The translations under genes and the position numbers were made by a program. 31,331 bases of DNA from a virus: positions 1 through 31,331 of IMG/VR virus record IMGVR_UViG_3300033179_000006; one strand, given 5' to 3'. Below, one piece after another: positions 3,002 to 14,650 of this stretch. Under the pieces are notes generated by a model. The model made no database searches and was not told where the DNA came from. It saw only the letters and a list, made by a program, of their open reading frames with translations. How positions within the stretch are numbered: position 1 is the stretch's first letter; every line of letters starts with the position of its first letter.

Positions 3002-3093
3002 AACGCCTCTTCCACCTCCTCCTCGCCATCGCCGCCACGGTCGAATGGCTGTTTACCCCTGAACCCGACCACGACCTCCGGGCGCTTCCATGA
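2998..3093 (+). CDS. 31-aa membrane microprotein
   Basis: A 31-codon frame beginning MKRLFHLLLAIAATVEWLF, a basic start then one hydrophobic helix, ending in an acidic Pro-rich tail. It is joined by ATGA overlaps at both ends to the regulator before it and the RNA ligase after it. That arrangement supports translation of an otherwise easily missed gene. It may anchor in the inner membrane. No function recognised. Confidence 0.55.
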   Translation: MKRLFHLLLAIAATVEWLFTPEPDHDLRALP

Positions 3094-3635
3094 TCGAATT
3101 CGAACCCTTTGCCAAGATCGCGCGCCTGACCCGCGAATGTACCGTCACCGAAAAGATCGATGGCACCAATGCCAGCATCTTCATCGGCGAGGACGGTTCG
3201 TTCCTGGTGGGCTCGCGTACGCGCTGGATCACGCCTGAGGATGACAACTACGGCTTTGCCAAGTGGGCGCATGCGAACCGCGAGGAGTTGGTTAATGGTC
3301 TCGGGATAGGCCATCACTTCGGCGAATGGTGGGGCCAGGGCGTGCAGCGCAACTACTCGCAGACCTCAAAGCGGTTCAGTCTGTTCAATACCTCGAAGTG
3401 GGGCGAGAGTCGCCCTTCTTGTTGCGACGTGGTGCCGGTTCTTTACAACGGCGTCTTTGATGAATTCGGCGTCTGCAAGGGCATCAAGGCCGCGCTCAAG
3501 CAATTGACCGAGCAGGGTAGCGCAGCGGCGCCCGGCTTCATGAAGCCCGAGGGCATCGTGATTTTCCACCATGCCGCGCATCTCTACTTCAAAAAGACGC
3601 TCGACAAAGACGAGGAATGGAAAGGGAAGTCATGA
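3090..3635 (+). CDS. RNA ligase (T4 Rnl2-like nucleotidyltransferase)
   Basis: A 181-aa ATP-dependent RNA ligase-type protein that would seal nicked or broken RNA through a lysyl-AMP intermediate. Motif I is EKIDGTNAS, with the nucleotidyl lysine at Lys22. SRTR (42-45) follows, GEWWGQG (78-84) fits motif III with Glu79, KPEGIVIF (152-159) fits motif IV and YFKKTLD (166-172) fits motif V. The length matches a minimal catalytic domain without a C-terminal module. No polynucleotide kinase or phosphatase partner is adjacent, though a HAD-like protein is encoded at 9697-10188. Repair of tRNA cut by a host anticodon nuclease is a known role of such phage enzymes; here it is inference. Confidence 0.85.
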   Translation: MIEFEPFAKIARLTRECTVTEKIDGTNASIFIGEDGSFLVGSRTRWITPEDDNYGFAKWAHANREELVNGLGIGHHFGEWWGQGVQRNYSQTSKRFSLFNTSKWGESRPSCCDVVPVLYNGVFDEFGVCKGIKAALKQLTEQGSAAAPGFMKPEGIVIFHHAAHLYFKKTLDKDEEWKGKS

Positions 3636-9188: not shown

Positions 9189-9685
9189 AAATCCTCGCCA
9201 TAGATCCTGGCACGACCCAAAGCGGCTGGGTGCTCACCGAAGACCAGCGTGTCCTGGAAAGCGGTATCTCCGAAAACCTCGGCATTCTCGGCATCGTCCG
9301 CGACCAGCCCCGGGACGGCCGCCGCCTCGCCATCGAGATGATCGCCAGCTACGGCATGCCAGTCGGCAAGGAGGTCTTCGAGACCTGCCTATGGATCGGC
9401 CGCTTCATGCAGGTCTGGCACGATCCGGAAGCGGTGACCCTGGTCTACCGCAAGGACGTGAAGATGCACCTCTGCGGCTCCCCGCGCGCCAAGGACCCGA
9501 ACGTACGGCAGGCACTGATCGATCTCTACGAGCCCACCGGCGGCGGGAAGACACCGCAAATCGGAACGAAGGGCCAGCCCGGCCCGCTGTATGGCGTCAG
9601 CAGCCACGCTTGGCCTGCGCTGGGCGTCGCGTTGACCGCATATCACCGTTTCGTGCCGGCGGCGCTCGGCGCGCAGCCATTCTGA
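9185..9685 (+). CDS. RuvC-like Holliday junction resolvase
   Basis: A 166-aa RNase H-fold nuclease. The opening AIDPGTTQSGW (5-15) gives the first catalytic Asp (Asp7). LAIEMIASYG supplies a Glu (Glu51). SSHAWPALGVA (139-149) sits where the last acidic residue lies, but with His141 instead of Asp. It probably cuts branched DNA from replication and recombination before packaging. It is coupled to the genes upstream. The substituted residue may mean altered metal use; such substitutions occur in phage versions. Confidence 0.75.
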   Translation: MKILAIDPGTTQSGWVLTEDQRVLESGISENLGILGIVRDQPRDGRRLAIEMIASYGMPVGKEVFETCLWIGRFMQVWHDPEAVTLVYRKDVKMHLCGSPRAKDPNVRQALIDLYEPTGGGKTPQIGTKGQPGPLYGVSSHAWPALGVALTAYHRFVPAALGAQPF

Positions 9686-9696
9686 CTGGAGCAGCG

Positions 9697-10188
9697 ATGT
9701 CCTTCCGCCCCATCCTCAGCCTCGACTTCGACGGCGTCCTCCACAGCTACACGACGCCCTGGAAGAACGCCCGCACCATTCCGGACGAGCCAGTACCCGG
9801 CGCGCTGGAATTCCTGGTGGCGGCGCAGGATGCCTTCCAGGTCGCCATCCACAGTTCCCGGTCCCATCAATGGCTCGGCCGCGCCGCGATGAAGCGCTGG
9901 CTGCGTGGCCACCTGGTCGCGGCCGCTGGCACCAGCTATGACGATTGCGCCACCTTTCTCCGTGATCACATCGCCGAGAGCATGTTCGCCGATCCGTGGG
10001 CGGATGAAGCGGCCGCCACGGTGCGCCGGATCGTGGGGAAGATCAGCTTTCCCCTGTTCAAGCCGCCGGCGACCGTGACGCTGGATGATCGGGCCCTGCA
10101 ATTCACTGGCGACTGGCCGGACCTGAAGGTGCTGCAACGATTCAGGCCTTGGAACAAGGTGCGGCGAGCCGTTGGGGAGGCGGTATGA
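9697..10188 (+). CDS. HAD-like phosphatase
   Basis: A 163-aa haloacid dehalogenase-fold protein. Motif I is SLDFDGVLHSY, with nucleophile Asp10 and acid/base Asp12. Motif II is IHSSRS (51-56). Motif IV is TLDDRAL with Asp130-Asp131. Such phage HAD proteins dephosphorylate small molecules or polynucleotide ends. The RNA ligase at 3090-3635 lacks an adjacent end-processing enzyme, so a 3'-phosphatase role is conceivable. That is speculation. The RBS GGAGCAGCG precedes the ATG. Confidence 0.75.
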   Translation: MSFRPILSLDFDGVLHSYTTPWKNARTIPDEPVPGALEFLVAAQDAFQVAIHSSRSHQWLGRAAMKRWLRGHLVAAAGTSYDDCATFLRDHIAESMFADPWADEAAATVRRIVGKISFPLFKPPATVTLDDRALQFTGDWPDLKVLQRFRPWNKVRRAVGEAV

Positions 10189-11528: not shown

Positions 11529-11845
11529 TGTGTGGAGCGCTGATTGCCGCTGCTGGTCCGGGCGCGATCTTCAGCGCTATGAGCCGCTTCGGTGCACTTC
11601 TGACCCCACAACCCAAGGAACTCCCCATGGACGATAGCCAACTCGACAATCTCTACAAGCAGCACGTCAGCACCAACCACGCCGCTGGCCTGCGCGCCTG
11701 CTTCGAAGCCGGCTGGAACGGTGCCATGGCGCAGAAGGCGGCCGAGGCCAACGATGCCCCCGCCAGTACGCCCACCATCGAAACCAACGACCAGGGCGGC
11801 GAGAATCCTGGCCTGGTGCGCACCAACGAGGACGAAAAGGACTGA
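11528..11845 (+). CDS. Phage hypothetical protein upstream of terminase, 105 aa
   Basis: Two starts are plausible. ATG 11528 overlaps the previous stop and gives 105 aa with a hydrophobic first 25 residues (MCGALIAAAGPGAIF). ATG 11627 (MDDSQLDNLYKQH) has a clear AAGGAA site and gives 72 aa. The C-terminal part, common to both, is acidic with a conserved-looking AGLRACFEAGWN. Function unknown; it lies directly before the terminase genes. Confidence 0.6.
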   Translation: MCGALIAAAGPGAIFSAMSRFGALLTPQPKELPMDDSQLDNLYKQHVSTNHAAGLRACFEAGWNGAMAQKAAEANDAPASTPTIETNDQGGENPGLVRTNEDEKD

Positions 11846-11846
11846 C

Positions 11847-12305
11847 ATGCCCGCCGGTCGCCCGTCCTCCTACAAGCCGGAATATGCCGCGCAGGCGCTA
11901 TCACTCTGCAGGCTCGGTGCGACCATCAAGGACCTAGCGGATTCGTTTCACGTCTCGGAATCGACCGTCGACAAATGGCGCGTCGACTACCCGGAATTCT
12001 CAAGAGCCCTAAAAGAAGGCAGGGAAGAATCGGACGCCAAGGTTGCCGACCGGCTTTTTTCGCGCGCCATGGGCTATTCCCACCCGGATGTGCACATCGC
12101 CGTGCACCAGGGGACGGTCATCAAGACCGAGATCACGAAGCACTACCCGCCGGACACGGTCGCCTGCATCTTCTGGCTGAAGAACCGCCAACCGGCGAAG
12201 TGGCGTGACGTCCAGAAGATCGACCACTCCGGCGCGATCGGCGGCTTCCAGCTCACGATGGACAAGGCCGCCGACCTTGTGAAGAAGATCAAGGGCGAGG
12301 AATGA
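11847..12305 (+). CDS. Terminase small subunit
   Basis: A 152-aa DNA-recognition subunit of the packaging motor. It opens MPAGRPSSYKPEYAAQALSL, a frequent start of phage small terminases, followed by a helix-turn-helix (ATIKDLADSFHVSESTVDKW). A helical oligomerisation region and the phrase FWLKNRQPAKWRD, typical of this family, come next. It would bind the pac/cos site and regulate the large subunit, whose gene overlaps its stop by four bases. Confidence 0.88.
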   Translation: MPAGRPSSYKPEYAAQALSLCRLGATIKDLADSFHVSESTVDKWRVDYPEFSRALKEGREESDAKVADRLFSRAMGYSHPDVHIAVHQGTVIKTEITKHYPPDTVACIFWLKNRQPAKWRDVQKIDHSGAIGGFQLTMDKAADLVKKIKGEE

Positions 12306-14650
12306 GCGAGTTCCACAGCCTCCCCCTGCAGAAGCTTCTCCCGGCCTGGGATGAGTTCGATGGCTGCCGGACTGACCTGGCCGCGATCCGGGCCCTGTGT
12401 CTTGTTGACCGCTACTACCTGCTGGTACGCATCCTCGGCCGTGTCGACATGCTGCACCCCTGGGTCTACGACCGATGCCGCGAGGTCGAGGAATCGCCGG
12501 ATGGCCATCTTGACCTCTGGGGCCGCGAGCACCACAAGTCCGGGATCATCACGCAGGGCGGTGCCATACAGGAAGTCCTCAAGGACCAGGAAATCCGTAT
12601 CGGCATCTTCAGCCACACCAAGGGCATCGCCCGGAAATTCCTGTCGCTGATCAAGCGCGAGCTGGAGAGCAACGTCATCCTGAAGGCGGCGTTCGAGGAC
12701 ATCCTCTGGTCGCAGCCGGAAAAGGAGGCGCCGGGCTGGTCGCTTGATGGCGGCCTCATCGTGAAACGCAAGAGCAACCCGAAGGAAGCCACGATCGAAG
12801 CCCACGGCTTGACCGACGGGCAGCCGACCTCCGCGCACTTCCCGCTCATCATCTACGACGATGTCGTGACTCGGGAAAGCGTGAACACCCCGGAGCAGAT
12901 CAAGAACACCACCGAGGCCTGGGAGCTTTCGGACAACCTCAGCACCATCAACGGCCGGAAATGGCACGTCGGCACCCGCTACAGCTACGCCGACACCTAC
13001 GAAGAGATCATGAAGCGCGGCGCCGTCGTGCCGCGGCTTCGGCCGGCCACGGATGACGGCACCATCACCGGAAAGCCCGTCTACTTCCCGCAGGCGGTCT
13101 GGAACGCGAAGCTGCTCGCCCAGGGTGAATCGACAATCGCCTGCCATGGTGCTGGTGCCCCGGTGCTAATGGCGGACTGGTCCTACAAGCCCATTGAAGA
13201 TGTCCGTGTCGGTGATTTTGTTGTCGGGTACGAAATTGGAGTCGGTAAAGGGCAGTGCGCTCTCCTGGTGCGTACCGAGGTCGTGGCCATCAACTGCCAG
13301 CAAAAGGAGTGCTTTGAATACACCACTGAATGCGGTTCGGTGGTGCGATGTACCGAAGACCACAAATGGTGGACGAAGCGTAGCGGCACGGACGGCCACA
13401 GTGTGTATGCGGCGCTGGGCTCCATGCGCAAGCGTGACTTGAAGCGGCTGTACCGAGTGTCCGAGCTACCGGAAGTCCTGGCCCATGAGCAAGAGCTTAA
13501 GTGGCAATACCTTGCTGGAATCATGGACGGCGAGGGCACTGTTGGGCCAAGCGGGCAGATCGTCATCACCCAGAGCGGTCAACACAACCCGGAGGTTCAT
13601 GCTCGTATCGGCGAGGTATTGGAAGATCTCGGCCTGAAGTATTCCAAATACGAGCGATCGCCTCACGGTAATAGCAAGGGTTCCACGCTGTTCATCCTGA
13701 AGGGTGGCCGCGACATGCGCCATCGCTTCCTACTCAATGCCAAGCCGGCCAAAGCCCGCGCGCTCACGGACTCTTTGTATTGCCACATCGGCGGCAAGAG
13801 CCGGACCAAGCCAGAAAAGGTTGTCTCTCGTCGAAGTCTCGGCACTGTGCCGGTCTACAACATTCAAACCATCACCGGCAACTACATCGCCTGGGGTTTT
13901 GCTTCCAAGAATTGTCAGATGCTGCAGAACCCGCTCGCTGGCAAGCAGCGCATGTTCAACGTCGAGGATCTCCAGACCTACGAGATCCGCCCCAATACGC
14001 TGACCTGCTACGTCCTCTGCGATCCGGCCCGATCGAAGAAGAAGGACAGCGCGAACACCGCCATTGTGGTGATCGGCCTGGACTACGCCGGCAACAAGTA
14101 CCTCCTCGACGGCTTCAACCACAAGATGGACCTCCAGGAGCGCTGGGAGAAGTTCTCCGGGTTGTACTGGAAATGGCGTCACGTCCCCGGTATCCAGTCC
14201 GTGCGCGCCGGCTACGAGAAGTTCGGCGCCCAGTCCGACCTCGACTACTTCGGCGAGCGCATGAAGGTCGAGCGCCGCAGCTTCGAGATCGTCGAACTGG
14301 CTTGGCCCAGCGATGGCGACGGCTCCAAGGTGGACCGCGTCCAGCGTCTCGGTCCCGACTTCCGTGGCCACAAGTTCTTCCTCCCCTACGCCACGCGCGA
14401 CGAAGCCCTGACCCGGAACCAGCAGAAGATCGCCGGCACCGGCCACGCCTACCGCATCGCCCGCCCGATCAAGCGCAAGGACGGGGAGGGCGCCATCTAC
14501 AACGTCGGGGAACAGTTCAAGGTGCAGGCCCACTACTTCCCGTTCGGTGGCCTAAAAGACCTGGTGGACGCCGCCTCCCGCATCTACGACATGGAGCCGA
14601 CGCCGCCGATTGTGGTGGACGAGCGTTCGCTCGAGCCGGAGTTCACGTGA
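12302..14650 (+). CDS. Terminase large subunit, interrupted in frame by an intein
   Basis: The 782-codon frame encodes a packaging ATPase/nuclease (residues 1-280 and 538-782) with an intein (281-537). ATPase features are the P-loop-like GREHHKSG (74-81), Walker B LIIYDDVV (182-189) and VGTRY (223-227). After the intein comes CQMLQNP (538-544), the conserved linker motif. The RNase H-fold nuclease then follows, with YVLCDPARS (first acidic residue Asp574) and a late LKDLVDAASRIYD. Splicing would give a 525-aa protein, normal for this family. Without splicing the ATPase and nuclease would be split by 257 residues, so splicing appears essential. The start is ATGA-coupled to the small subunit. 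Confidence 0.92.
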   Translation: MSEFHSLPLQKLLPAWDEFDGCRTDLAAIRALCLVDRYYLLVRILGRVDMLHPWVYDRCREVEESPDGHLDLWGREHHKSGIITQGGAIQEVLKDQEIRIGIFSHTKGIARKFLSLIKRELESNVILKAAFEDILWSQPEKEAPGWSLDGGLIVKRKSNPKEATIEAHGLTDGQPTSAHFPLIIYDDVVTRESVNTPEQIKNTTEAWELSDNLSTINGRKWHVGTRYSYADTYEEIMKRGAVVPRLRPATDDGTITGKPVYFPQAVWNAKLLAQGESTIACHGAGAPVLMADWSYKPIEDVRVGDFVVGYEIGVGKGQCALLVRTEVVAINCQQKECFEYTTECGSVVRCTEDHKWWTKRSGTDGHSVYAALGSMRKRDLKRLYRVSELPEVLAHEQELKWQYLAGIMDGEGTVGPSGQIVITQSGQHNPEVHARIGEVLEDLGLKYSKYERSPHGNSKGSTLFILKGGRDMRHRFLLNAKPAKARALTDSLYCHIGGKSRTKPEKVVSRRSLGTVPVYNIQTITGNYIAWGFASKNCQMLQNPLAGKQRMFNVEDLQTYEIRPNTLTCYVLCDPARSKKKDSANTAIVVIGLDYAGNKYLLDGFNHKMDLQERWEKFSGLYWKWRHVPGIQSVRAGYEKFGAQSDLDYFGERMKVERRSFEIVELAWPSDGDGSKVDRVQRLGPDFRGHKFFLPYATRDEALTRNQQKIAGTGHAYRIARPIKRKDGEGAIYNVGEQFKVQAHYFPFGGLKDLVDAASRIYDMEPTPPIVVDERSLEPEFT
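13142..13912 (+). mobile_element. Intein with single-motif LAGLIDADG homing endonuclease
   Basis: A 257-residue intein occupies residues 281-537 of the large terminase. It starts at Cys281 (block A: CHGAGAPVLMADWSYKPIED, then VRVGDFVVGY). Block B contains TEDH (351-354), and it ends VPVYNIQTITGNYIAWGFAS-Lys-Asn537 before Cys538 as the +1 residue. The endonuclease motif is YLAGIMDGEG (403-412); I see only one LAGLIDADG motif, so it probably works as a dimer or is reduced. The penultimate residue is Lys instead of the usual His. The DNA looks more AT-rich at third positions than the exteins, fitting later acquisition. Confidence 0.92.

Follow-up and report, generated by a model that had tools for sequence, protein, structure and literature searches.

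The large terminase (TerL) gene of IMGVR_UViG_3300033179_000006 is interrupted in frame by 257 codons that very probably encode an intein of class 1, splicing in cis and containing a one-repeat LAGLIDADG homing endonuclease, from a phage lineage specialised in the linker between the ATPase and nuclease domains of TerL. In what follows, the window is the whole stretch of 31,331 nucleotides that was analysed.

The interrupted terminase frame and its uninterrupted relatives

The TerL reading frame (12302–14650 of the window, plus strand; 782 codons encoding 782 residues, with the stop at 14648–14650) lies directly 3' to the gene for the terminase small subunit (11721–12305, plus strand; phrog_309, E = 1.1e-53), whose stop overlaps the TerL start. 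Residues 1–280 form the N-extein (12302–13141, plus strand), which matches phrog_38, terminase large subunit (E = 9.7e-27), and is assigned to the ATPase domain because the model of a related TerL, that of locus L004, matches solved TerL ATPase domains. The C-extein (13913–14647, plus strand), which comprises the end of the linker and the nuclease domain, matches phrog_5573, likewise terminase large subunit (E = 0.0021), and nuclease folds align to residues 284–503 of L004. The match to phrog_38 and the structure of the L004 homologue thus identify the exteins as those of a phage large terminase, with both ATPase and RNase H-like nuclease domains present.

Between the exteins lies the insert (13142–13912, plus strand; TerL residues 281–537), which runs from Cys1, whose codon begins at 13142, to Asn257, which is residue Asn537 of the frame and whose codon ends at 13912. 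The translation and the clade alignment place Lys256 before the terminal Asn257 (13907–13912, plus strand), and the +1 residue, as seen from the translation and from the junction in relatives that lack the insert, is Cys538 (13913–13915, plus strand), the first residue of the motif CQMLQNP. The initial annotation had described just such an intein, with a Lys-Asn C-terminus and the Cys of CQMLQNP at +1, and its borders proved exact to the codon. An NCBIfam model for intein-containing Rv2578c spans the entire insert (residues 1–257; E = 1.2e-13), and the Pfam models Hom_end_hint and LAGLIDADG_3 also match it, both below their gathering cut-offs (19.2 bits against a cut-off of 22.5 for LAGLIDADG_3). 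No other large terminase was found among the 20 other frames of the window scanned with PHROGs, the record being a fragment, and it is reasonable to suppose that packaging depends on splicing of the intein. Elsewhere in the window, positions 3090–3635 match a phage RNA ligase (phrog_548, 9.2e-30) and positions 9391–10188, more weakly, a phosphoheptose isomerase (phrog_1238, 7.1e-7).

As the initial annotation had proposed, we compared the frame with TerL alleles in relatives. The N-extein, used as a query against viral contigs, found 22 TerL loci, and 21 of these align contiguously over the junction with the insert absent, L025 being too short to judge. In L004, whose TerL is 66% identical to that of the window, the empty site reads ATISCQMLQNPLAG, and the TerL site of a Nevskia MAG (L033) is also empty. 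Chance or misassembly of the insert was ruled out, since homologues with and without it were found at the same codon.

The model of the L004 TerL (pLDDT 81, pTM 0.56, so that domain orientation is unsure) found its best whole-length structural match in the TerL of PhiV-1 (8dgc_E, Z 19.5). The junction falls between residues 274 and 275 of L004, in a stretch (271–286) over which pLDDT is below 50, and it is flanked by the alignment of the solved P74-26 ATPase domain to residues 28–279 and by that of the G20c nuclease domain to residues 284–503. These alignments uphold the placement of the site between the two domains, as had been claimed initially. The linker is also empty in the TerL of L050, which is 62–63% identical to that of the window; an intein of the clade described below lies between GTRY and SYAD instead (L050:2393–3187, record G004). 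Record G004 also contains a free-standing 217-residue LAGLIDADG ORF with one motif (L173:786–1439).

Splicing residues and the missing histidines

We modeled the intein with AlphaFold2 from 71 aligned inteins. The model (mean pLDDT 94.6, pTM 0.90) predicts a Hint domain and one LAGLIDADG repeat; the Hint fold resembles that of the Ssp DnaB intein (1mi8, Z 17.3 over 132 residues, 2.1 Å), and Foldseek matched the model to PI-SceI (1vde, E = 1.7e-8). The N-terminal splicing region, with its border set from the model and its Hint strands, comprises residues 1–112 (13142–13477, plus strand). Within it, the segment GSVVRCTEDHKW (13334–13369, plus strand), whose Thr71 and His74 are conserved in the clade, is named block B here, in the standard naming of intein blocks. 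Blocks F and G (13853–13912, plus strand) end in TGNYIAWGFASKN and contain no His. The block names are as used in the available text of Kelley 2016 (PMC5050341).

Cys1, Thr71 and His74 of block B, Asn257 followed by Cys538, and the predicted Hint fold are the features that assign the intein to class 1. Two features that are typical of that class without defining it are absent: the penultimate His, replaced by Lys256, and the Asp and His of block F, where the window has Asn240 and Gly246. Indeed, the translated intein has no His in its last 24 residues. Kelley 2016, in the text available, counts forms with penultimate Gly, Lys and Ser as class 1 and describes class 3 by a position 1 without a nucleophile together with a block F Cys and the WCT triplet (PMC5050341). 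Class 3 was ruled out by Cys1 and by Asn240 at the block F position, where there is thus no Cys. Given Asn240 for Asp, Gly246 and Lys256 in blocks F and G, splicing could be slow or partial. We consider that the intein probably splices constitutively and also homes.

Two alignment-based scans, together with phage and plasmid matches, yielded at least 101 full-length relatives, the window intein included; the sample was seeded with the family of this intein and consists of the matches listed, so that the proportions of Lys are not representative of inteins at large. Left out of this set were 45 of the 146 loci, namely the 22 TerL loci found with the N-extein, L032, L033 and 21 partial matches. 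The 101 listed relatives end in HN (50), KN (38), SN (9), RN (2), QN (1) or AN (1), and all have Cys, Ser or Thr at +1. A tree of the 96 distinct inteins among the matches listed, five identical ones having been removed, is divided by a split with support of 100/95 into sides of 40 and 56 rows. The penultimate residue is His in all 40 rows of one side, whereas in the 56-row clade that contains the window intein it is Lys in 36, Ser in 9, His in 7, Arg in 2, Gln in 1 and Ala in 1 (again among the matches listed). The split persisted when the last alignment columns were removed (SH-aLRT 96). A recent loss of His in the window phage was ruled out by the predominance of non-His residues in the clade, also with those columns excluded; the penultimate Lys is not a decay peculiar to the window TerL.

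The 56 members of the clade share the pattern TxTGNYxAWGxASKN. Among the matches listed, Cys1, His74 and Asn257 are present in all 56 and Thr71 in 54, and Asn247 is found in 54 of the 56 against 1 of the 40 on the His side. Gly246, at the position of the block F His, occurs in 46 of the 49 clade members with a penultimate residue other than His and in 1 of the 7 with His, and 33 of the 36 Lys members have no His in their last 24 residues (blocks F and G), both counts being among the matches listed. Four of the 56 listed members (L046, L051, L054 and L068), and no others, have an Asp at block F position 240, and all four have His256; these form one small clade, so that the co-occurrence of Asp240 and His256 amounts to one event. 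According to the available text of Kelley 2016, the penultimate His helps Asn cyclisation, the block F His has been suggested as a stand-in where it is absent, and penultimate Lys, Gly and Ser have been reported in mycobacteriophage class 1 inteins (PMC5050341). A literature search on penultimate lysine in inteins gave no paper under that wording. The new point is that, as read from the aligned sequences, the putative stand-in in block F is mostly missing in the clade of the window.

The initial annotation had proposed that the replacement of His by Lys renders splicing slow or conditional and could thereby time packaging; on this view TerL would mature late. The authors who described the TerL inteins of Microcystis phage Mic1 propose such inteins as biosensors (PMC7156551, in the part available), and residues at the penultimate position are reported to modulate splicing (PMC5050341, likewise in part), yet a timing switch is highly improbable here. 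Lys is the commonest penultimate residue of the clade (36 of 56 among the matches listed), also in inteins of portal and other proteins, and is thus an inherited state rather than a tuning of the terminase. The portal site, CRLFY or CRLLY, is common to L027, L028, L057, L060, L062, L064 and L065. The PORT inteins of cluster C1 mycobacteriophages (Pio gp94 and Shnickers gp90) belong to the same clade, with 34% full-length identity to the window intein, and like it have one LAGLIDADG motif, an ASKN end and Cys at +1; unlike it, they are inserted in the portal protein, in phages of actinobacterial hosts. The RDF intein of mycobacteriophage Bethlehem (gp51) is, like that of the window, a class 1 intein without penultimate His, and it splices fully, although its penultimate residue is Gly and its host protein is a different one; in this, the one phage intein lacking the penultimate His that was tested there, changing that Gly to His slowed splicing, with more than 5 h needed for about half (PMC5050341, available text). 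The same text has all five tested terminase inteins splicing readily, and Pham3880-g was the only one whose precursor could easily be seen. Finally, empty TerL alleles are common, so that a need of the phage for a timing switch is not visible. Given the clade norm and the effect of His in the RDF intein, we set the proposal aside in favor of constitutive splicing.

The linker of TerL as a site of insertion

We compared the joined exteins of all 96 inteins with a TerL profile built up from 17 empty TerLs. Among the matches listed, 33 of the 56 clade members lie in a recognisable TerL, 30 of them at the ATPase–nuclease linker, and the +1 position, in L004 numbering, is 275 in 22, 274 in 7, 273 in 1 and 222–224 in 3; two of the 40 listed rows of the His side were recognised as TerL, both at other places. 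On the tree, the linker site takes only 2 changes, so that the linker inteins come close to one lineage, and the register takes at least 6. Two registers, one residue apart, are in use (by L043, L049, L052 and L055, for example, against L034, L035 and L053), the upstream one having Ser at +1 and mostly Ser, Ala or Gln before the Asn. At register 275 the penultimate residue is Lys in 16 of 22, His in 4, Ser in 1 and Arg in 1, and at registers 273–274 it is Ser, Ala or Gln in 7 of 8 (all among the matches listed). The association of register with Lys (16 of 17 against 1 of 8 among the matches listed, Fisher 1.3e-4) is represented on the tree by 4 independent pairs, with which significance is unreachable; Lys goes with 275 in 2.7 of these on average and never the reverse. 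For the association of Lys with Cys at +1 (raw counts of 30 of 36 against 2 of 11 among the matches listed, Fisher 1.5e-4), the independent tree pairs are too few.

We tentatively put forward, as a possible reading, that the clade is a distinct catalytic branch of inteins, mainly in environmental phages, that would splice without a C-terminal His, Lys, Ser or Arg before the Asn and a GNY block F together taking the place of the penultimate and the block F His, and that would include a TerL-linker sublineage whose two registers keep Cys, Ser or Thr at +1, Lys being usual with Cys, and Ser, Ala or Gln with Ser.

Among the papers listed in literature searches, none, judged by its title and the opening of its abstract, describes inteins at the TerL ATPase–nuclease linker. 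The mycobacteriophage large-terminase inteins TerL1-a to -e, TerL6-f and Pham3880-g, like that of the window in host protein, include five that were tested and spliced, and all seven sites lie in the ATPase domain, whereas that of the window lies in the linker motif before the nuclease (Kelley 2016, PMC5050341, in the text available). The DirtMonster terminase intein, which by our reading is of the Pham3880 kind, is preceded by SSPY and followed by SKIGKF and has a penultimate His. The Mic1 inteins are also in TerL, with control of packaging proposed by their authors (PMC7156551, available part); as we read the translations, the two lie elsewhere than that of the window, one ending HN before TPKGYG and the other SN before CDALRY.

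We examined the inteins of nine phage and plasmid records from the databases, and of these only that of MW202554 (uncultured podovirus ctLwi270) lies at the linker; it occupies the same TerL residue and, like that of the window, has one LAGLIDADG motif and a basic residue before the Asn (Arg-Asn). It differs in that its intein is 25% identical to that of the window and in that TerL coding ends 39 residues past the intein, with the nuclease in a separate downstream ORF. The locus (L002:1426–3963) consists of an ATPase–intein ORF, then a 62-residue ORF, then a 229-residue nuclease-domain ORF, and this split TerL may reflect either a real terminase of two genes or an error in sequencing or assembly. 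Such an arrangement, and the low model confidence of the linker itself, would fit an intein that cleaves rather than splices and so frees the ATPase and the nuclease as two paired proteins. We regard this as highly improbable: +1 Cys, Ser or Thr and the terminal Asn are kept in all 101 listed relatives, ligation requiring both and N-cleavage alone neither, and the C-extein of 39 residues occurs in MW202554 only, of the 30 linker-site members among the matches listed. Splicing in cis is the reading that we retain.

The predicted endonuclease and the spread of the intein

The LAGLIDADG domain (residues 113–215; 13478–13786, plus strand), with its border set from the model, is predicted to be one complete alpha-beta-beta-alpha-beta-beta-alpha repeat with the motif on its first helix. 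That motif, LAGIMDGEG (residues 124–132; 13511–13537, plus strand), is alone in the sequence, as had been noticed initially, and is conserved: among the matches listed, all 56 clade rows have exactly one such motif, with Asp129 and Glu131 invariant. Homodimeric LAGLIDADG enzymes have this layout, with one complete repeat. Since the model has one complete repeat, the nuclease would not be half of a two-motif enzyme, and we infer that it acts as a homodimer. The single complete repeat and the one motif in all 56 rows ruled out a nuclease of the two-motif type whose second motif has degenerated. A homodimeric nuclease would favour a pseudo-palindromic target; at the empty site of the window, with the target position assumed, the best pseudo-palindrome had 6 of 11 pairs and was matched by 70% of control stretches. 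The domain might instead be a relic that serves splicing only, half of a former two-motif nuclease that has lost DNA cutting, and the missing palindromic signal at the empty site fits this, as does the report that the two TerL inteins with demonstrated DNA cleavage, those of BAKA and Bethlehem, both have two motifs (PMC5050341, in the text available). We think such a relic unlikely in view of the single motif and the invariant Asp129 and Glu131 throughout the 56 listed members and of the completeness of the predicted repeat, homodimeric LAGLIDADG enzymes being established (PMC3943268, available part). A homing endonuclease is the reading that we prefer.

Evidence as to how the intein has spread points in two directions. 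Its codon composition is alien to that of its host gene, GC3 being 0.673 where the exteins have 0.864 and 0.906, and of 207 stretches of the same length taken from other frames, 5 have a value as low. Occupancy among close relatives is mixed: L004, the nearest TerL, is empty, whereas L034 and L035, with TerLs 59% and 62% identical to that of the window, are occupied at the same site by inteins 57% and 54% identical to its own, both ending SKN. In L050 and L123 the inteins are 65% alike and the TerLs 52%. Meanwhile, intein and TerL distances are correlated (Mantel r 0.45, 0 of 2000 permutations; 26 of the 30 linker rows, four being excluded for short flanks), so that ancient vertical inheritance, and not homing, may account for much of the distribution; some global alignments of distant TerLs were poor (one pair with 0% identity), and the pairwise differences were used for the correlation alone. 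Saturation of dS in most cases left few pairs for which dN/dS was informative. Taken together, mixed occupancy, the GC3 of the intein, the L050/L123 pair and the distance correlation make both descent and movement likely.

At E 1e-3 the intein has matches in 155 of the 50,697 records of deposited phages, and 151 of these are Mycobacterium or Gordonia phages. A search of 398 bacterial genomes gave one full-length relative, which lies at another site of a phage-type terminase; in this terminase-like protein (L147:1252–3636, in genome G093, likely from a prophage) the intein ends HN and is followed by TTFEML, and about 15 kb off on the same contig lies a second, weak match. The mycobacteriophage protein CindyLou gp262 (L026:904–2721), listed as hypothetical, carries a clade intein ending SSN, and some of its orthologues are annotated as "HNH endonuclease" despite the LAGLIDADG motif in the insert. 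A helicase-like ATPase of Vibrio phage 13VV501A (L032:1652–4153) has two intein-like inserts, both ending HN, which begin at residue 37 (in the P-loop) and residue 284.

We propose that Cys1 would form the N-terminal thioester, assisted by Thr71 and His74 of block B, and that Cys538 would then receive the N-extein. Cyclisation of Asn257, proceeding without a penultimate or block F His, would yield a 525-residue TerL with the conserved CQMLQNP motif restored, and the role of His would probably be filled by Lys256 or by the setting of Gly246, Asn247 and Tyr248. The released 257-residue intein would dimerise and cut intein-less TerL genes at the CQMLQNP motif, and these would acquire a copy of the intein through repair.

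The window intein belongs, as a well-conserved member, to a widespread and under-described clade of phage inteins, and its real interest lies in its missing histidines and its linker site. With 36 Lys members, 33 of them without either His, and 7 nested His members among the matches listed, the clade makes the replacement of His testable by two-way residue swaps. The TerL linker motif before the nuclease is a recurrent home of inteins, and the single-repeat nucleases of about 100 residues found within them would, if active, be handy small meganucleases.
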